From positions 3,702,501 through 3,766,500 of the forward strand of contig NC_011891.1 of NCBI RefSeq assembly GCF_000022145.1: a DNA stretch of 64,000 nt, written 5' to 3'. Positions 2 through 51,415 of this stretch are shown piece after piece. The DNA is from Anaeromyxobacter dehalogenans 2CP-1 (GTDB taxonomy: Bacteria; Myxococcota; Myxococcia; Myxococcales; Anaeromyxobacteraceae). Below the pieces are notes generated by a model. The model was not told where the DNA came from, did not search any database, and was given only the letters and a program-made list of their open reading frames with translations. The position numbers and the translations under genes are program-made. How positions within the stretch are numbered: position 1 is the first letter of the stretch; every line of letters begins with the position of its first letter.

Positions 2-940
2 TCAGCCGGGCGGGCGCCGGCGGCGCGCGACGTCGGAGCCGCCCGGTCCCGTGCGCCGGACCCACTCGATGGCGTCGCGCACGCGCCGGGGCACGAGCCG
101 CCGCGACGGGTAGACCGCGAACAGCTCCCGCCCCTCCGGCTCCCCCAGCGCGCACTCCAGCGCCACCAGCCCTCCCGCGCGGGCGATCATCTCGGCCGGC
201 GCGCGCACCACGCCGAGCCCCGCCAGCGCGGCCTCGACCGCGACGCGCGGGTCGGTCGCCGCGAAGCGCTCGTTCGGCCGCAGCTCGCGCACCACCCCGT
301 CCGCACCCAGGAACCGCCACGGCCGGCCCGGGTGCGTCACCACCGCCGGCGCCCGCGCCAGCGTCGCCGCGTCCACCCGCCGCCGGCCCCCGAGCGCGCG
401 CGCGACCACCTCCGGCGAGGCCGCCAGCGCGGACGGGATCGCCCAGAGCCGGCGCGCCACCACGTCGGCCTCGGCGACCGGCCCGACCCGGAACGCCAGG
501 TCGAGCCCCTCCTCCACCAGGCTCAGCACCGAGTTGGTGAGCCGCAGGTCCACGCTGACGCGCGGGTGGGCCGCCGCGTACGCGATGAGCGCCCGGCCGA
601 CCCGCTCCGCGCCCGTCACCACCGGCGCCGTCACCCGCAGCCTGCCGGAGGGCTCCTCCTCGCGATCGGCCGCGTCCTCGAGCAGGTCCCGGAGCTGATC
701 GAGCAGCGGCGCCGCGCGCGCGAGCAGCCGCGCCCCCTCGTCCGTGGCGGAGACGCGCCGGGAGGTGCGGTGCAGCAGGCGGACCCCGAGCCGCTCCTCC
801 AGGCGCGCCACCGCGCGGCTGACGGTGCTGGTCGGGACGCCGGTGCGCCGGGACGCCGCCACGAAGCTCGACTGCTGCGCCACCGCCACGAACAGCCGCA
901 GGTCCCCCGGATCGATCATCTCATCCATGGCACGAAGCAT
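2..940 (-). CDS. LysR family transcriptional regulator
   Basis: A 312-residue protein of normal LysR length. The N-terminal winged helix-turn-helix spans about residues 12-70 and contains the typical SFVAASRRTGVPTSTVSRAV core. A type 2 periplasmic-binding-like effector domain fills roughly residues 95-295, starting at SGRLRVTAP. In-frame ATGs also exist at 928 and 919; no strong ribosome site decides between them. It lies back to back with the SDR gene at 991, the classic arrangement for a LysR regulator acting on its divergent neighbour. Its effector is unknown. The gene is complete: its TGA is at 2-4. Confidence 0.9.
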   Translation of the reverse strand: MLRAMDEMIDPGDLRLFVAVAQQSSFVAASRRTGVPTSTVSRAVARLEERLGVRLLHRTSRRVSATDEGARLLARAAPLLDQLRDLLEDAADREEEPSGRLRVTAPVVTGAERVGRALIAYAAAHPRVSVDLRLTNSVLSLVEEGLDLAFRVGPVAEADVVARRLWAIPSALAASPEVVARALGGRRRVDAATLARAPAVVTHPGRPWRFLGADGVVRELRPNERFAATDPRVAVEAALAGLGVVRAPAEMIARAGGLVALECALGEPEGRELFAVYPSRRLVPRRVRDAIEWVRRTGPGGSDVARRRRPPG

Positions 941-43554: not shown

Positions 43555-45174
43555 TCACATCCCGCCCATCCCGTCGTCCATGAGGTGCCACATTCCCATC
43601 ATCCCGATGTCCTCGTGCTCGAGGATGTGGCAGTGGAACATGGTCATCCCGCCGTGGTCGCGGATCGGCATGCGGAAGGTCGCGCTGCCCCACTTCGGGA
43701 TGATGATCGTGTCCTTCCACGCGGGAGCGCTCGTGTACAGCGCCGCGTACCTCGCGATGCTCGCGTCGCCGCCGCTGATCGAGAGGACCTGGGCGTCGTT
43801 CACGTGCTGGTGCCACGGGTGGTCCATGCCGCTCTCGTTCACGACCTCCCAGATCTCGTCGTCGCCGACCATCGAGTGATGCTCGCAGCTGCGGATGGAG
43901 CCGTCCGCGAGCTGCTCGAAGGTGATGCCGTTGATGTAGCCCCGCCCCTGCCCCATGCTGAGCGCGAACCTCGGCCGCGCCAGCGCCGGATCGTCGGAGA
44001 GCCTCGTCGTCCCCGGGGCCACCGCGGCGGGGAGCGCCTGGGCGGCGCGCGTCCGGCTCGCGATCCGGACCGTGAGCAGCGTCACCTGCGCGCTCGCCAT
44101 GTTCCCGTGCCGGGCGTACGGCAGCGCGAGCAGCTTGTAGTCGCCCTTGTCGGCGGTCCCGAACGGCACGAGCAGGTCCACGCGCTCGCCCGGCGCCATC
44201 AGGAGCTCGGACCGCGCCGCGGTGGGCCGATCGAGGAGCCCACCGTCCGCGCCCACCACGTGGAACGGGTGGCCCTGGAGCGAGAGGCGGTAGAAGCGGG
44301 CGTTGCTCACGTTGAGGATGCGCAGCCGTCGCACCTCGCCCGCGGTGACGGCGAGGTACGGGTTCACCTGGCCGTTGACGGTGACGACGTTGCCTTCCCT
44401 GCCCCGCATGTACTCGGAGAGCATCGTGTAGGGCGCGGGGGCGCCGTTCGAGACCGTGACGTCCTTGAGCACGAGGAGCGTCGCCGGGTACGGATCGAGC
44501 GCGGTGATCTCGCCGTCGGAGACGTCGATCGCGCCCACCAGCCCGTTCCACATCTGCTCCGCCACGGAGCCGTGGAGGTGCGGATGGTAGAGCGCGATCG
44601 AGCCCGGCCGCTGCATCGCGAGGTCGTAGTCGTAGGTGAGGCCCTGCCCGCCGCCCTCGATGCGGAGGTGCACGTCGTCCGCCGGCAGGCCCGTCATCGC
44701 GTCCGCCCCGGGGGACACGTGCAGCCCGTGCACGTGCACGTTGGTGGGATGGCGCTCGTGGCCGAGCAGGTTCAGCGCCGGGTCGGCCGGGAGGCCGTTC
44801 GTGAACTCGAGGCGGATGCGCTGGCCGGGGCCGGGCTCGGCCCGGAGCACCGGCGCCACGAAGCGGCCGTCCAGCGGCGCGCCGAGGTCCCGGTACACCA
44901 TCGCGTTCGCGCTCGCCCCGTCGATCGCGACCGGCGCCTGGCACGCCTCCAGCCGGTAGTGGAGCATGCCGCCCGGCGACCCGGAGACCGGCGTCGCGAC
45001 GGGGAGCGCTCTCAGCGGCCCGCTGACCGGCGGATCCGTCACGGTGGTCGTACCCCCGCCTCCCCCGCCCCCGCGCATCATCCGTGCGAGCGCACCGCGC
45101 GCCGTCGCCGCACCCGCGACCGCTGCCGTCGTGCGCACCAGGAACTGCCGCCTGCCGATCGGCTTCCCGCGCAT
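43555..45174 (-). CDS. Tat-exported multicopper oxidase
   Basis: 539 residues. Twin-arginine signal GRRQFLVRT, then three cupredoxin domains. Copper motifs: HVHGLH, HPHLHG, HPWHQH and the C-terminal HCHILEHEDIGMM, giving complete type 1 and trinuclear sites; the axial position is Met. A Gly-run at residues 35-43. Bilirubin-oxidase/CueO-like; metal or phenolic substrates are likely. The frame is open upstream to 45279 but the Tat signal fixes the start at 45174. Confidence 0.92.
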   Translation of the reverse strand: MRGKPIGRRQFLVRTTAAVAGAATARGALARMMRGGGGGGGTTTVTDPPVSGPLRALPVATPVSGSPGGMLHYRLEACQAPVAIDGASANAMVYRDLGAPLDGRFVAPVLRAEPGPGQRIRLEFTNGLPADPALNLLGHERHPTNVHVHGLHVSPGADAMTGLPADDVHLRIEGGGQGLTYDYDLAMQRPGSIALYHPHLHGSVAEQMWNGLVGAIDVSDGEITALDPYPATLLVLKDVTVSNGAPAPYTMLSEYMRGREGNVVTVNGQVNPYLAVTAGEVRRLRILNVSNARFYRLSLQGHPFHVVGADGGLLDRPTAARSELLMAPGERVDLLVPFGTADKGDYKLLALPYARHGNMASAQVTLLTVRIASRTRAAQALPAAVAPGTTRLSDDPALARPRFALSMGQGRGYINGITFEQLADGSIRSCEHHSMVGDDEIWEVVNESGMDHPWHQHVNDAQVLSISGGDASIARYAALYTSAPAWKDTIIIPKWGSATFRMPIRDHGGMTMFHCHILEHEDIGMMGMWHLMDDGMGGM

Positions 45175-45612
45175 GGTGATCCCTTTCGATGTCGGGGGGT
45201 CCACGTGCAGGAGAGCCACGCACCGTTCCGCGGACAACCACACAGCCGGGGAATGCGGCGAAACGCTCGGGCGCGCCATTCACCTTGGGTGATCGATGCC
45301 GGGGAAGGCTGCCGCAGGTCAGGCCATCGGGTGCGCGCGGCGAGCCCTGGCATGGCCGCGCCACCACGCGCGCCGGGCGGTGAACCGGGGTCGACCTCCC
45401 GCTTGGGTCGCGCGCGATGAGATCCGACGGGCTACGACGTCGAGGGCCACATGACCCCCCACCACGACGCCCTCGCCGCGCGCCCTCGCACGCCTCGCAC
45501 GCCCCGATCGCCCACGCGACCTCGTCCGCGCGCCTTCGCCACGCTCGCCAGCGTGCTCTGCGCCTGCGCGGCCGCCGGCACCCAGCACACCTCCAGCCTC
45601 GAGAGACCCGCC
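45175..45612. promoter_or_regulatory. Divergent region with a palindromic site
   Basis: 438 bp between the oxidase and the hydrolase. The only distinct element is TCACC-TTG-GGTGA at 45280-45292, a perfect 5-bp inverted repeat about 106 bp upstream of the oxidase. The plus frame is open from 45451 and includes a possible signal-like stretch (FATLASVLCACAAAG), so the hydrolase might start earlier. Confidence 0.4.
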
Positions 45613-46431
45613 ATGAACGCCCCCGAACGCCCCCGCTCCTCCGGATACGCGGACGTCGACGGCCTGCGCCTCTACTACGAGATCCGCGGCACCGGCGGGG
45701 CGCCGCTGGTCCTCCTGCACGGCGGCCTGCACAACAGCGCGCTCGACGCCCCCGTCGCCGAGCGCCTCGCCGCGCACCGCCAGGTGATCTCGGTGGACCT
45801 GCAGGCCCACGGCCGCACCGCCGACGTCGAGCGACCGCTCCGCTTCGAGCGGCTCGCCGACGACGTCGCCGCGCTGCTCGCCCAGCTCCGGATCCCGCGG
45901 GCCGATCTTCTCGGCTACTCGCTCGGCGGCGGGGTTGCCCTGAGGACGGCGATCCAGCACCCCGAGCGCGTCCGCAGGCTGGTCCTCGTGTCGGTGCCGT
46001 TCTCCGACGCGGGGTGGTACCCCGAGGTGAAGGCGGGGTTCCAGCACCTCGGCCGCGCGCTCGCAGAGCCGATGCGGCCGTCGCCCGTGTACCAGACGTA
46101 CGCCGCCATCGCGCCGCACCCCGAGCGCTTTCCCGACCTGCTCGACAAGCTGGGGGAGCTCGAGAACCGCCCATACGACTGGTCGGCGGACGTCGCGCAG
46201 GTGACCGCGCCCACCCTGCTCGTCTACGCCGACGCGGACGCCATCCGGCCCGAGCACGCGGTCCAGCTCTTCCAGCGGCTCGGCGGCGGGCGCCGCGACG
46301 GCGGCCTCGATCGCAGCGGCGTGTCGAAGGCGCGGCTCGCGATCCTCCCCGGGCTCACCCACTACGAGGTGTTCGAGTCGCCCGCGATGCCCGTCGCGGT
46401 CGAGCCGTTCCTGGATGCGCCGGAAGGGTGA
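45613..46431 (+). CDS. Alpha/beta-fold hydrolase
   Basis: 272 residues from ATG 45613. LVLLHGGLHNS (oxyanion His-Gly), the nucleophile elbow GYSLGG, a candidate acid at ADADAIRP and the catalytic His in LTHYEVF. Small-molecule esterase or epoxide/haloalkane-type fold, substrate unknown. A 54-codon in-frame extension to 45451 has a possible export signal. Confidence 0.85.
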   Translation: MNAPERPRSSGYADVDGLRLYYEIRGTGGAPLVLLHGGLHNSALDAPVAERLAAHRQVISVDLQAHGRTADVERPLRFERLADDVAALLAQLRIPRADLLGYSLGGGVALRTAIQHPERVRRLVLVSVPFSDAGWYPEVKAGFQHLGRALAEPMRPSPVYQTYAAIAPHPERFPDLLDKLGELENRPYDWSADVAQVTAPTLLVYADADAIRPEHAVQLFQRLGGGRRDGGLDRSGVSKARLAILPGLTHYEVFESPAMPVAVEPFLDAPEG

Positions 46432-46538
46432 CGCGACGTCCCGGCGGGCGGGCGCCACGGCGACTCGCGCACGCTCGCGGCCGGTTTGCCGGCCGCGAGC
46501 GGCTTGCGCAGCTTGTCGATGACCCCTGGAGGAACGCC

Positions 46539-47708
46539 GTGAGCCTCGACCTGACGAAGGAGCGGGGGACCCCGCTCGACAAGCAGCAGTTCACCTGGAA
46601 GGACTTCCTGCGGCACCAGTACTCGAAGCTCGACGCCGACGCGTTCACCCGCGTGCGGGTGATCCTGATGAACGGGATCGAGCAGGAGGCGCTGCGCTTC
46701 CAGCACGCCTGCGCCCGCATGAACGCGCGCCTCCAGCAGCCGCTCGCCCGCATCCGCCGCGTGGAGCAGCACCAGGCCACGCTGGTGAACTGGCTCAACC
46801 CCGCCGACCAGTCGCCGCTCGAGACCACCATCGGCTACGAGCAGGTGGCCATCGAGGTCACCGCGCACCTCGCGCAGCACGAGCCGGATCCGTACGTGGC
46901 GCAGGCGTTCCGGTTCGGGCTGCTCGAGGACTTCGACCACATGTACCGGTACTCGGCCCTGCTCGATCGCCTGGAGGGGAAGGACGCGAACAACATCCTG
47001 CAGAGCTACACCGACGTGATGCCCGGTCGCCCGACCGAGCAGGAGCACCGCGCCCCGGAGGACGACCTGCGCGACCACTACGATCGCGCGAAGGCGCAAC
47101 CGCTCACCAAGCTGAACACGCTCACGCTCATGGCGGGCGAGCAGCAGACGCACGCCTACTACATGAACATCGGGCCGATCTTCTCGGACCCGGTCGCGCG
47201 GGCGCTCTACGCGGAGATCGCGTCGATCGAGGAGCAGCACGTCACCCAGTACGAGTCGCTCATCGATCCGGACGAGAGCTGGCTGGAGAAGTGGCTCCTG
47301 CACGAGGCGACGGAGGTCTGGAACTACTGGAGCTGCCTGCAGCAGGAGCGCGAGCCGGCGGTGAAGGCGATCTGGGAGCGATTCCTGGACTACGAGCTCG
47401 GCCACCTGCACGCCGTGCGGGAGCTGTTCGAGTCGGTGGAGAAGCGGGACGCCGCCGCGGTGCTGCCCCGGTCGCTCCCGGAGCCGCTGCGGTTCGAGAG
47501 CCAGCGCGAGTTCGTGCGCCAGGTCCTGGAGCGAGAGGTGGACCTGCGGGCGAGCGGGACGCGCTTCGTGCCGCTGGAGGAGGAGTCGCCGGCGTCGATC
47601 GCGTACCGCCGGCGGATGAACGCCGACGGCTCGCCCACGGAGATCGTCGCCGGCGGCTATCGCTGGCGGCCCGGGACCGAGCTCGCCGGGACCACGTCGG
47701 TCCACTAG
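46539..47708 (+). CDS. Helical ferritin-like protein, unknown family
   Basis: 389 residues, almost wholly alpha-helical. Repeated acidic/His motifs fit di-metal four-helix bundles: NGIEQEALRFQHA, LLEDFDHMYRYSALL, AGEQQTHAYYM, EIASIEEQHVTQYESL, and YELGHLHAVRELFE. They suggest two ferritin-like bundles in tandem. The GTG start is set by TGGAGGA (46527-46533) and lies 14 bp ahead of another ferritin-like gene, an apparent operon. Di-iron binding is inferred. Confidence 0.75.
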   Translation: MSLDLTKERGTPLDKQQFTWKDFLRHQYSKLDADAFTRVRVILMNGIEQEALRFQHACARMNARLQQPLARIRRVEQHQATLVNWLNPADQSPLETTIGYEQVAIEVTAHLAQHEPDPYVAQAFRFGLLEDFDHMYRYSALLDRLEGKDANNILQSYTDVMPGRPTEQEHRAPEDDLRDHYDRAKAQPLTKLNTLTLMAGEQQTHAYYMNIGPIFSDPVARALYAEIASIEEQHVTQYESLIDPDESWLEKWLLHEATEVWNYWSCLQQEREPAVKAIWERFLDYELGHLHAVRELFESVEKRDAAAVLPRSLPEPLRFESQREFVRQVLEREVDLRASGTRFVPLEEESPASIAYRRRMNADGSPTEIVAGGYRWRPGTELAGTTSVH

Positions 47709-47721
47709 GGAGGGGAACGCC

Positions 47722-48504
47722 ATGGCGCAGAAGCACTCGAAGAAGCCCACCGACATGGGGACGAACCGGACCGGCATCGCGGCCTCCCCGGTGGACGCGA
47801 AGAAGGCGGTGGAGGGGGCGCAGCGCGCCGCTGCGACGGAGGGGGGCGCGGAGCGCCTCGCCGACTTCCGCGCGGAGTGGTCGAAGGCGGCGCCGCCCGC
47901 CGGCACCATGCCGCCTCCCGCGACGGTGAAGGGCGCCGTGAAGAGCCTCTCCAAGGCCGTCCGGGGGGAGACCGCGAACGTGCTGCTCGACAAGCTCGGC
48001 GAGCGGCTGGCGTTCGAGCGCACCGGAGTCCGGCTCTACGAGGCCGTGCTCGCGAAGCTGCCCGCGAGCAGGACGAGCGACGGCGACCTCGGCGCCCCCG
48101 AGCTGCGGCAGCTTCGCGACGAGGAGCACCGCCACATGCTCGTCGTCACGGAGGCCATCGAGCAGCTCGGGGGCGATCCCACCGCGGTGACGCCCTGCGC
48201 GAACCTCGCCGGCGTGCAGGGCCTCGGGCTCGTCCAGTCCCTCGCCGACCCGCGCACGACGCTCACGCAGTGCCTCGACACGCTGCTCGCGGCGGAGCTC
48301 ATCGACAACGACGGGTGGAAGCTGCTCATCGCGCTCGCCGAGGGGATGGGCCAGACCGAGGTGGCGAAGCGCTTCACGGAGTGCCTGGCCGAGGAGGACG
48401 AGCACCTCCTCAAGGTGCGGGCCTGGGTCGCCGAGCGGCTCGAGATCCAGGCCGGGACGGGGCTCCCGCGGGCCGACTTCGGGGAGCCGGCGCAGCCGGT
48501 CTGA
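47722..48504 (+). CDS. Ferritin-like domain protein with long N-terminal tail
   Basis: 260 residues. Residues 1-85 are a disordered-looking Lys/Ala/Pro-rich tail; residues 90-250 form a four-helix ferritin-like bundle (AFERTGVRLYEAVL, EEHRHMLVVTEAIEQLGGDP, LAAELIDNDGWKLLIAL, LAEEDEHLLKVRAWV). The metal motifs Glu...ExxH and EExxH are present. Likely operon partner of the previous gene, and possibly a stress-protection protein. Confidence 0.78.
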   Translation: MAQKHSKKPTDMGTNRTGIAASPVDAKKAVEGAQRAAATEGGAERLADFRAEWSKAAPPAGTMPPPATVKGAVKSLSKAVRGETANVLLDKLGERLAFERTGVRLYEAVLAKLPASRTSDGDLGAPELRQLRDEEHRHMLVVTEAIEQLGGDPTAVTPCANLAGVQGLGLVQSLADPRTTLTQCLDTLLAAELIDNDGWKLLIALAEGMGQTEVAKRFTECLAEEDEHLLKVRAWVAERLEIQAGTGLPRADFGEPAQPV

Positions 48505-49193: not shown

Positions 49194-49946
49194 ATGGCCC
49201 AACCCGTCCTCGAGCTGCACCAGCTCACGAAGCGGTTCCGCGGGCCGGCGGCCATCGGGCCGGTGTCACTCACCGTGAGCCGTGGCGAGGCCGTGGCGCT
49301 CCTCGGGCCGAGCGGCGCCGGCAAGTCCACCCTGCTCCGCCTGGCGCTCGGCCTCCTCCGTCCCGACGCCGGCGAGGTCCGCTTCCTCGGCGCGCCGATC
49401 GGACCCGGCGACCACGCGGCGCGCAGGCGCATCGGCTACGTCGTCCAGGGCGGTGGCCTCTTCCCGCACCTGACCGCCGCCGCGAACACCACCCTCGTCG
49501 CGCGCCATCTGGGCTGGGCCGCGGAGCGCGTCCGCGCGCGGCTGGCGGAGCTCGCGGCGCTGGCGCGCCTCCCGGCCGACGCGCTGGAGCGCCACCCGGG
49601 CGCGCTCTCGAGCGGGCAGGCGCAGCGGGTCAGCCTGATCCGGGCGCTGATGCTCGATCCCGAGCTCCTGGTCCTCGACGAGCCCCTCGGCGCGCTCGAC
49701 CCCATCACGCGGGCCGGGCTCCAGGAGGACCTGCGGGCCGCCTTCCGGGCGCTGTCGAAGACGGTCGTCCTGGTCACCCACGATCTCGCCGAGGCGGCCT
49801 TCCTCGCGGACCGGCTGGTGCTGCTCCGGGACGGCCGGGTGGTCCAGGCGGGGACGCTCGAGGATCTCGCCCGTCACCCCGCCGATCCGTTCGTCGCCCG
49901 GTTCGTCGGCGCCCACCGGGCCCTCGTCCTCCCGGAGGTGCGGTGA
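49194..49946 (+). CDS. Osmolyte ABC transporter ATP-binding protein (OpuCA-like)
   Basis: 250 residues. Walker A GPSGAGKST, Q-loop VVQGGGLFPHLT, signature LSSGQAQRVSL (variant LSSGQ), Walker B LLVLDEPLGALDP and H-loop VTHD. No CBS domains follow, unlike OpuCA of Firmicutes. Overlaps the permease fusion by TGATG. Confidence 0.9.
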   Translation: MAQPVLELHQLTKRFRGPAAIGPVSLTVSRGEAVALLGPSGAGKSTLLRLALGLLRPDAGEVRFLGAPIGPGDHAARRRIGYVVQGGGLFPHLTAAANTTLVARHLGWAAERVRARLAELAALARLPADALERHPGALSSGQAQRVSLIRALMLDPELLVLDEPLGALDPITRAGLQEDLRAAFRALSKTVVLVTHDLAEAAFLADRLVLLRDGRVVQAGTLEDLARHPADPFVARFVGAHRALVLPEVR

Positions 49947-51415
49947 TGCTCGCGGTGGCCCTCGCCCTCGCCGCGCTGGCGACCCCCGGGGTCCGCGTCG
50001 GCTCGAAGGCCTTCACCGAGTCGGTCGTCCTCGGCGAGATCGTCGCGCAGACCGCCGCGTCGACGGGGACGGCCGCCGTCCACCGCCGGGCGCTCGGCGG
50101 GACGCGGGTGGTTTGGGAGGCGCTCACGCGGGGCGAGATCGACGTCTACCCCGAGTACACCGGCACCCTCGTCCGCGAGATCCTGGCCGGCGAGCCGATC
50201 GCCGACGACGCCGCCCTCCGGCGCGCGCTGTCGGCGCGCGGGGTCGGCGTGGCGGCCGTGCTCGGCTTCGACAACACCTACGCGCTCGGGATGCGGCGTG
50301 CAGCCGCCGAGCGGCTCGGCATCCGGACCATCTCGGACCTGCTCCGGCACCCCGGGCTCCGGTTCGGCTTCACGAACGAGTTCGTGGACCGCGCCGACGG
50401 CTGGCCCGCGCTCCGGTCGCGCTACGGCCTCTCGGCGTCGTCGGTGCGCGGGCTCGACCACGACCTCGCCTATCGCGCGCTGGCGGAGGGCGCGCTGGAC
50501 GTGGTGGACCTCTACTCGACGGATGCCCAGATCGCCCAGCTCGACCTGTCGGCGCTCGACGACGACCGGCGGGCGTTCCCGCGCTACGACGCGGTGATCC
50601 TCCAGCGGCTGGATCTCGACGCGCGCGCCCCTGCGGCCGTCGCAGCCATCCGCCGGCTCGCGGGCACCATCACCGCGCGAGAGATGACCGCCATGAACGC
50701 GCGCGTGCAGCTGGAGCACGCCGACCCCGGCGAGGTGGCGGCGGCTTTCCTCGCGGAACGGCTCGGGCTCGCGCCGGCACCGGTGGCGACGGACGGGCTC
50801 GCGCGCCGCGTCGCCGATCGCACGCTCGAGCACCTCGTGCTGGTCGCCGTGGCGCTCACCGGCGCGATCCTCGCCGCCGTGCCCCTCGGCATCCTGGCCG
50901 CGCGCCGCCCGCGGCTCGGCCGGCTCGTCCTCGCGATCGTGGGGGTGGTGCAGACCGTCCCCTCGCTCGCGCTCCTCGTGTTCATGATCCCGCTCCTCGG
51001 GATCGGGGCGCGCCCCGCCATCGCGGCGCTGTTCCTGTACGGGCTCCTGCCGATCGTGCGGAACACGCACGCCGGGCTCACCGGGCTGGCCCCGGAGCTG
51101 CGGGAGTCGGCCGAGGCCCTCGGGCTTCCGCCGCTCGCCCGGCTCCGGCGGGTGGAGCTGCCGCTCGCCACCCCCGCCATCCTGGCCGGCGTGAAGACCT
51201 CCGCGGTCATCACGGTCGGCACCGCGACGCTCGGCGCGCTCGTGGGGGCCGGCGGCTACGGCCAGCCCATCCTCACCGGCATCCGGCTGCTGTCGGTGCC
51301 GCTCATCCTCGAGGGCGCGGTCCCCGCGGCGCTCCTCGCGCTGGGCGTGCAGGGGCTGTTCGATCTGGCCGAGAAGCTCCTCGTGCCGGCGGGCCTGCGG
51401 GCGGAGCGGGGGTGA
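49946..51415 (+). CDS. Fused substrate-binding protein-permease of an osmolyte ABC transporter
   Basis: 489 residues. A signal-like N-terminus, then an OpuAC-type binding domain (about 15-270; RVGSKAFTESVVLGEIVAQ, ALTRGEIDVYPEYTGTLVREIL, FTNEFVDRADGW), then a BPD permease of about six helices (about 285-480; EAA-like loop ESAEALGLPPLARLRRVELPLATPAILAGVKTSAVITVGTATLGALVG). Binding domain first, permease second, the reverse of the usual permease-binding order. Carries glycine betaine/choline-type osmolytes. Confidence 0.9.
   Translation: MLAVALALAALATPGVRVGSKAFTESVVLGEIVAQTAASTGTAAVHRRALGGTRVVWEALTRGEIDVYPEYTGTLVREILAGEPIADDAALRRALSARGVGVAAVLGFDNTYALGMRRAAAERLGIRTISDLLRHPGLRFGFTNEFVDRADGWPALRSRYGLSASSVRGLDHDLAYRALAEGALDVVDLYSTDAQIAQLDLSALDDDRRAFPRYDAVILQRLDLDARAPAAVAAIRRLAGTITAREMTAMNARVQLEHADPGEVAAAFLAERLGLAPAPVATDGLARRVADRTLEHLVLVAVALTGAILAAVPLGILAARRPRLGRLVLAIVGVVQTVPSLALLVFMIPLLGIGARPAIAALFLYGLLPIVRNTHAGLTGLAPELRESAEALGLPPLARLRRVELPLATPAILAGVKTSAVITVGTATLGALVGAGGYGQPILTGIRLLSVPLILEGAVPAALLALGVQGLFDLAEKLLVPAGLRAERG

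Follow-up and report, generated by a model that had tools for sequence, protein, structure and literature searches.

Two adjacent genes of Anaeromyxobacter dehalogenans 2CP-1, whose genome is a single contig of 5,029,329 bases, raise the question of whether the first of them encodes a ferritin of a described kind or another type of metalloprotein, and of what this protein would do beside the ferritin-like protein encoded after it. We analysed a 64,000-nt stretch of this genome (the window) that carries both genes, and refer to their products as P1 and P2.

Gene arrangement at the locus

Both open reading frames proposed in the initial annotation, of 389 and 260 residues, were confirmed at their coordinates (Table 1), but the 14 bp that it placed between them is by measurement a 13-nt gap (47709–47721) from the P1 stop to the P2 start. 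A GGAGG-type ribosome-binding site precedes each gene at a normal distance, and the starts of P1 homologues match the annotated P1 start in the alignment. RefSeq labels P1 a 'hypothetical protein'. By Pfam, an alpha/beta hydrolase gene lies 5′ of P1 on the same strand (45451–46431) and a gene for a Metal_resist-family protein lies 3′ of P2 (48589–49050).

Table 1. Features of P1 and P2, with nucleotide positions in the window and residue positions in each protein
Feature	Residues	Coordinates	Strand	Description
P1 ribosome-binding site		46528..46532	+	GGAGG, from sequence
P1	1–389	46539..47708	+	389 aa, GTG start; duplicated ferritin-superfamily protein, two predicted di-metal sites
P1 repeat unit 1	31–150	46629..46988	+	from helices, conservation and repeat offset 155
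P1 hairpin 1 (unit 1)	helices 35–61, 63–84			E48, E76xxQ79
P1 hairpin 2 (unit 1)	helices 93–114, 118–146			E101, D131xxH134
P1 inter-unit linker	151–185	46989..47093	+	possible inner-bundle B–C crossover, on the inferred topology
P1 repeat unit 2	186–305	47094..47453	+	from helices, conservation and repeat offset 155
P1 hairpin 3 (unit 2)	helices 188–214, 218–240			E201, E231xxH234
P1 hairpin 4 (unit 2)	helices 248–269, 273–301			E256/E259, E286xxH/Q289
P1 C-terminal extension	306–389	47454..47705	+	small helices, two short strands, last ~8 residues disordered
P2	1–260	47722..48504	+	260 aa, ATG start; single-site ferritin-like protein
P2 N-terminal motif	15–23	47764..47790	+	N-R/K-T-G-x-x-x-S-P; candidate docking peptide, low-confidence N-terminal region
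P2 four-helix domain	85–244	47974..48453	+	four long helices in model; E99, E135xxH138, E192, E225xxH228

Between the hydrolase stop (46431) and the P1 start (46539), the leader contains a perfect GC-rich inverted repeat (46473–46502; stem of ~13 bp, loop TTTG), and folding of the 121-nt leader gave a z of −2.08 against shuffles. We do not call the repeat a terminator because it has no T-run, and a scan for promoters and terminators found none. Farther out, a 574-aa frame on the reverse strand (43555–45279) has by eye the look of a multicopper oxidase (HCHILEHED-type motif), and 49194–51415 on the forward strand holds, again by eye, an osmoprotectant-type ABC ATPase frame followed by a fused substrate-binding/permease frame.

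Repeat, ligands and relatives of P1

Profile searches placed P1 in no described family. Its best Pfam match reached an E-value of only 0.071 and passed no cut-off, and NCBIfam searches with 46 P1 members gave sub-threshold matches only, among the matches listed. Within that listing, the weak matches were to MbfA, an iron exporter (37 of 46 members), EncB-family encapsulin cargo (32 of 46, best 1.8e-5), rubrerythrin (8), encapsulin-associated ferritin (5) and deformylating oxygenase (3). As sequence evidence these matches are coherent and point mainly to ferroxidase-type relatives (MbfA and EncB); distant P1 members added sub-threshold matches to EncFtn-like (PF22277), rubrerythrin and Metal_hydrol profiles. 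A PDB sequence search with P1 alone found no relative, the whole P1 profile gave only a chance match (E 0.76), hairpin 4 gave none, and searches with the inner domain and with hairpin 3 reached EncB, COG1633 and a designed di-iron protein at only E 0.34–0.66. Foldseek with the P1 model returned nothing under E 0.05 in the PDB or under 0.1 among viral models, and PADLOC gave no match. The lack of any curated cut-off passed in Pfam or NCBIfam tests P1 against their described ferritin-like families, and not against the superfamily as a whole.

P1 is nonetheless a confidently predicted helical protein. An AlphaFold2 model computed from the 46-row alignment (pLDDT 92.2, pTM 0.91) has eight long helices, and profile self-comparison revealed an internal repeat with a period of exactly 155 residues; among the offsets from 40 to 229, this alone gave a summed profile score above zero across residues 31–306. 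The best ungapped self-segment (70–150 versus 225–305) scored 43.7, whereas none of 200 column shuffles exceeded 29.9, and the helix boundaries of the model agree with the offset to within 2 residues. A weaker second offset of 100 lays hairpin 2 onto hairpin 3, and E201 stands two positions out of repeat register with E48. By hhalign, hairpins 2 and 4 matched over 42 gapless columns (E 3.7e-5), and the remaining hairpin pairs were not significant. These profile comparisons show that P1 arose when a four-helix unit of about 120 residues was duplicated in tandem.

All four hairpins carry a conserved Glu in their first helix and an (E/D)xx(H/Q) motif in their second, 27–30 residues later. The occurrence of E-(26–34)-[ED]xx[HQ] in four of four hairpins had a frequency of 5e-5 in 20,000 shuffles (conserved columns within helices), so the Glu/His helix motifs that were initially noticed go beyond chance. 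Eight positions are invariant across the 46 members (E101, D131, H134, E201, E231, H234, E259 and E286), as are E/D at 76 and H/Q at 289, where Gln replaces His in 14; E48 is kept in 45, Q79 in 44 and E256 in 42. Therefore, P1 probably carries two di-metal sites, predicted from the four Glu...(Glu/Asp)xx(His/Gln) hairpins, and by these hairpins in predicted helices it matches the ligand pattern of the ferritin-like superfamily. As to whether the predicted structure might lack a helical metal site, the model is confident and helical and places the conserved ligands in its four hairpins.

The earlier view that P1 fits no ferritin, bacterioferritin or Dps is borne out by its length and by every profile: a classical subunit is a four-helix protein of 150–180 residues, and we rejected that assignment for a protein of 389 residues with eight long helices and a 155-residue repeat. 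Its further suggestion of a new di-metal family gains support, at the level of sequence, from a strict helical ligand pattern that passes no family cut-off.

P1 shares features with several known systems. With bacterioferritins and ferritins it would share a four-helix bundle that places six ligands at each site (against bacterioferritin, Z 12.8 with P1 and 17.9 with P2), but its chain has eight helices and an internal duplication, and it reaches the cut-off of no ferritin profile. The erythrin group (symerythrin, rubrerythrin and MbfA) contains the nearest sequence relatives, symerythrin for P2 and, weakly, MbfA for P1; however, we found no rubredoxin or membrane domain, P1 is doubled, and P2 is extended at its N terminus by a long region that carries a motif of its own. 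Mn catalases are helical di-metal proteins, and KatB aligns with P1 residues 17..307 (Z 11.9, rmsd 3.9, 153 aligned), but no sequence similarity to P1 was found. To our knowledge, no Mn catalase has an internal duplication.

EncFtn and EncB share with P1 the helix hairpin E-(30)-E-x-x-H, together with the weak EncB and PF22277 matches. The EncFtn ligands are Glu32, Glu62 and His65 (PMC5012862), and their 30 + 3 spacing is the same in P1 hairpins 2 and 3. EncFtn is one dimerising hairpin, whereas P1 has four per chain, and no encapsulin shell was seen near P1 among the neighbour families listed; we therefore rejected P1 as a cargo protein of this type, which would be a short two-helix subunit accompanied by a shell gene. 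Ferritins have been proposed to arise by duplication of an EncFtn ancestor (PMC5012862), and P1 looks like a further duplication after that proposed step.

The pairing of the hairpins was read from alignment ranges alone. In VIA-align, bacterioferritin matched the P1 model over 128 residues within 31..304 (Z 12.8, rmsd 2.6), a score that is not decisive, as a Z under ~13 can reflect an arrangement common among helical bundles. A match of 128 residues across this range would be expected if hairpins 1 and 4 lay in one bundle, with hairpins 2 and 3 between them in sequence. In the model, the loops between hairpins 1–2 and 3–4 have 8 and 7 residues and the linker between hairpins 2–3 has 41. Because the two short loops look too short for a ferritin B–C crossover, and because the structural match spans 31..304, we favour a nested arrangement, with hairpins 1 and 4 as an outer pair and hairpins 2 and 3 as an inner pair, over simple tandem bundles (1 + 2 and 3 + 4), which are disfavoured though the nested alternative is not proven. 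The strict ligand set of hairpins 2 and 3 (E101, D131, H134, E201, E231 and H234) would then form a di-iron site that includes His, and hairpins 1 and 4 would wrap this inner pair and form a second, Gln-containing site (E48, E76, Q79, E256/E259, E286 and H/Q289).

P2 and the partners of P1

The initial description of P2 as ferritin-like stands. P2 passes the Pfam Ferritin cut-off (PF00210, 27.1 bits against 24.5), its profile finds symerythrins as the nearest solved relatives (E 7e-6), and its predicted fold matches bacterioferritin (Z 17.9, rmsd 2.3, 147 aligned); a DUF892 match in Pfam was sub-threshold. A four-helix bundle with the E..ExxH..E..ExxH pattern puts it in the ferritin-like superfamily, and all 46 members keep E99, E135xxH138, E192 and E225xxH228 without variation. 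P2 is thus an ordinary single-site ferritin-like protein, nearest to symerythrin. It is not a rubrerythrin, as neither its sequence nor Pfam reveals a rubredoxin-like Cys4 domain; symerythrin-type relatives are likewise not known to have one. A comparison of whole-domain P1 and P2 profiles was not significant, and we rejected a whole-domain likeness between the two.

The disordered tail once ascribed to P2 was misplaced. Low confidence sits mainly in its N-terminal ~80 residues (10-residue blocks average a pLDDT of 46–89, with values below 50 confined to residues 10–17) and not in a C-terminal tail. This N-terminal region contains two conserved motifs, the first with N15 in 45, T17 in 44, and G18 and P23 each in 42 of the 46 members, and the second, G-x-x-P, with G61 and P64 each in 45. 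A natural reading is that the first, the NRTG...SP peptide, is a putative docking peptide for P1.

We searched genome contigs for P1 with a pattern scan, which confirmed 98 relatives, of which 80 were kept; the count is a lower bound because the scan needs exact 8-residue stretches in common with the query. P1 occurs in Myxococcota, Pseudomonadota, Bdellovibrionota, Acidobacteriota, Planctomycetota, Nitrospirota, Fibrobacterota, Chloroflexota and Methanoculleus archaea, several of these being metagenome bins whose labels may be wrong, and in plasmid-collection records from Streptantibioticus, Nonomuraea, Tistrella, Pandoraea and Subdoligranulum; phage records held none. Outside Chloroflexota, P1 keeps 62–70% identity to the window protein across bacterial phyla (~47% in Methanoculleus) and is much more conserved than P2, at 33–52% in the same bacterial rows. 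The distribution is patchy: P1 was present in 55 of 156 Myxococcota genomes and in 4 of 301 in a Chloroflexota sample, and P1–P2 was missing from all eight other genomes of the genus that were searched. P2 matches occurred in 66 of the 156 Myxococcota genomes, and P2 homologues also exist without P1.

Adjacency of P1 and P2 is maintained across phyla. Of the 80 loci, 66 have a P2 homologue directly after P1 and in the same orientation, with a gap of −14 to 65 bp where P1 is intact (one second copy, at −76, probably has a misassigned start). Within Myxococcota, P2 adjoins P1 in 54 of the 55 genomes with P1, three of them damaged (G082, G084 and G137), and in the sole exception (G099) the contig ends 198 bp past the P1 match. 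The 14 loci without P2 are one from Chloroflexota (L074) and 13 from Methanoculleus. Whole-genome searches of six of the 14 (five Methanoculleus and one Chloroflexota) found no P2; therefore, P2 is not essential to P1. In two other Chloroflexota genomes, a P2-like gene lies just after P1 or overlaps it, one of them with 33% identity to P2 (E 5e-13).

Several loci bear traces of gain, loss or rearrangement. In G001 (C341:21376-21807, L129), the hydrolase and Metal_resist genes are ~430 bp apart compared to ~2.06 kb in the window (46444–48503), so the pair is there a clean insertion or deletion. In one shortened locus (L135, G084:C1:619451-620236), a P1 that has a large gap within it continues in frame into sequence resembling P2, and a shortened P1–P2 remnant occurs in another Myxococcota genome (G137:C859:17872-18191); the remnants in G084 and G137 look like decayed or fused relics. 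Three related genomes (G033, G092 and G093) have P2-like paralogues far from P1, with one in-frame TAG stop in a 182-residue open frame. In a Kofleriaceae bin, two tandem P1–P2 pairs share one contig (L014:779-6118).

Other proteins take the place of P2 in some loci. A hemerythrin (HHE) gene lies 26 nt 3′ of P1 in Streptantibioticus and adjoins P1 on the opposite strand in Nonomuraea, and the gene after P1 in Tistrella encodes an HHE–DUF892 fusion of 379 aa. The P1 proteins of these three form one clade (support 100/99). HHE partners thus number only three, two of which are closely related. In Pandoraea, a DUF892 gene stands third, after P1–P2. The DUF892 (YciE/YciF) and HHE proteins are partners of P1 and not its relatives. 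In most lineages, then, P1 has a neighbour of a di-metal type; the exceptions are Methanoculleus, L074, G284 and Subdoligranulum, where none was seen, and some anaerobes carry P1 alone.

No third conserved gene was found beside P1–P2. Among 30 hand-picked neighbours, 23 of which had a Pfam family, SDR, DJ-1/PfpI, Usp, Hsp20 and PNPOx-like genes gave early hints of a general-stress operon. We then listed the two nearest genes per side (90–480 aa) for 64 loci with a crude gene caller, 186 in all, and took the first 150 for a Pfam scan, of which one, a second P1 copy, was dropped. Among the remaining 149, from L009–L060 and set against no far-gene control, no stress, iron or redox family was enriched (SDR 4, Usp 2), which weakens the case for a general-stress operon. 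Neighbouring genes therefore give little genomic support for a stress role.

Proposed function and significance

We propose that P1 represents a new ferritin-superfamily architecture, in which hairpins, duplicated twice over, would have given a single chain that holds a pair of interlocked ferritin bundles with di-metal sites of unequal kind. P1 may thus serve as the conserved centre of a modular system in which P2, hemerythrin or hemerythrin–DUF892 can each act as the second di-iron component. We consider the chances of this proposal evenly balanced.

As to function, our leading though tentative reading, held at slightly less than an even chance, is that P1 and P2 are a two-protein di-metal system with a protective role in Fe(II)/O2 or peroxide chemistry. 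P1 would bind P2, perhaps via the N-terminal peptide of P2, and the complex would oxidise Fe(II) with O2 or peroxide, protecting the cell under oxidative or iron stress. P1 would be the core, and its partner could give way to a hemerythrin or hemerythrin–DUF892 protein or, in some anaerobes, be missing. This chemistry fits because of the ferroxidase-type relatives, the two strict ligand sets, the di-metal-type partner and the occurrence in aerobes and anaerobes alike.

The high conservation of P1 could instead reflect a substrate pocket rather than iron storage. P1 would then be an oxygenase or oxidase, with di-iron or Fe/Mn centres, whose substrate is organic, with P2 or hemerythrin as its iron or oxygen donor. 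The identity of P1 across phyla, 62–70% against 33–52% for P2, is unusual for a storage protein, its C-terminal extension is conserved, its two inferred sites are unequal, one being Gln-rich, and deformylating oxygenase is among the weak matches listed (3 of 46 members). We nevertheless consider this account unlikely, if a serious contender, as pathway genes do not recur beside P1 and its weak matches are mainly to the ferroxidase types MbfA and EncB.

Less probable again is that P1–P2 acts as a peroxidase or catalase, rubrerythrin-like or Mn-catalase-like, and not as an Fe(II) oxidase. The symerythrin relationship of P2, the KatB alignment and the retention of P1 in anaerobes are consistent with it, but we saw neither a rubredoxin domain nor a redox partner, whether fused or adjacent, and Mn catalases rank no better than bacterioferritins against P1. 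That one or both P1 sites are without metal and P1 is a scaffold or regulator organising P2 is improbable: Gln stands for His in the outer set at 79 and, in 14 of 46 members, at 289, but every inner ligand is kept in 46 of 46, archaea included, and Methanoculleus has P1 without P2.

A search of the open-access literature found no paper on the P1–P2 pair. What this analysis adds is a duplication with a 155-residue period, a double ferritin fold that is probably nested, an almost constant pairing with P2, and a partner that can be exchanged. That no Pfam family covers a protein found in archaea and conserved at 62–70% between bacterial phyla exposes a genuine gap in annotation, and the internal repeat of P1 is a testable case of ferritin fold growth by hairpin duplication. 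Partner exchange, with most lineages keeping a neighbour of a di-metal type, suggests a common iron or oxygen chemistry that is open to direct study in two small soluble proteins.
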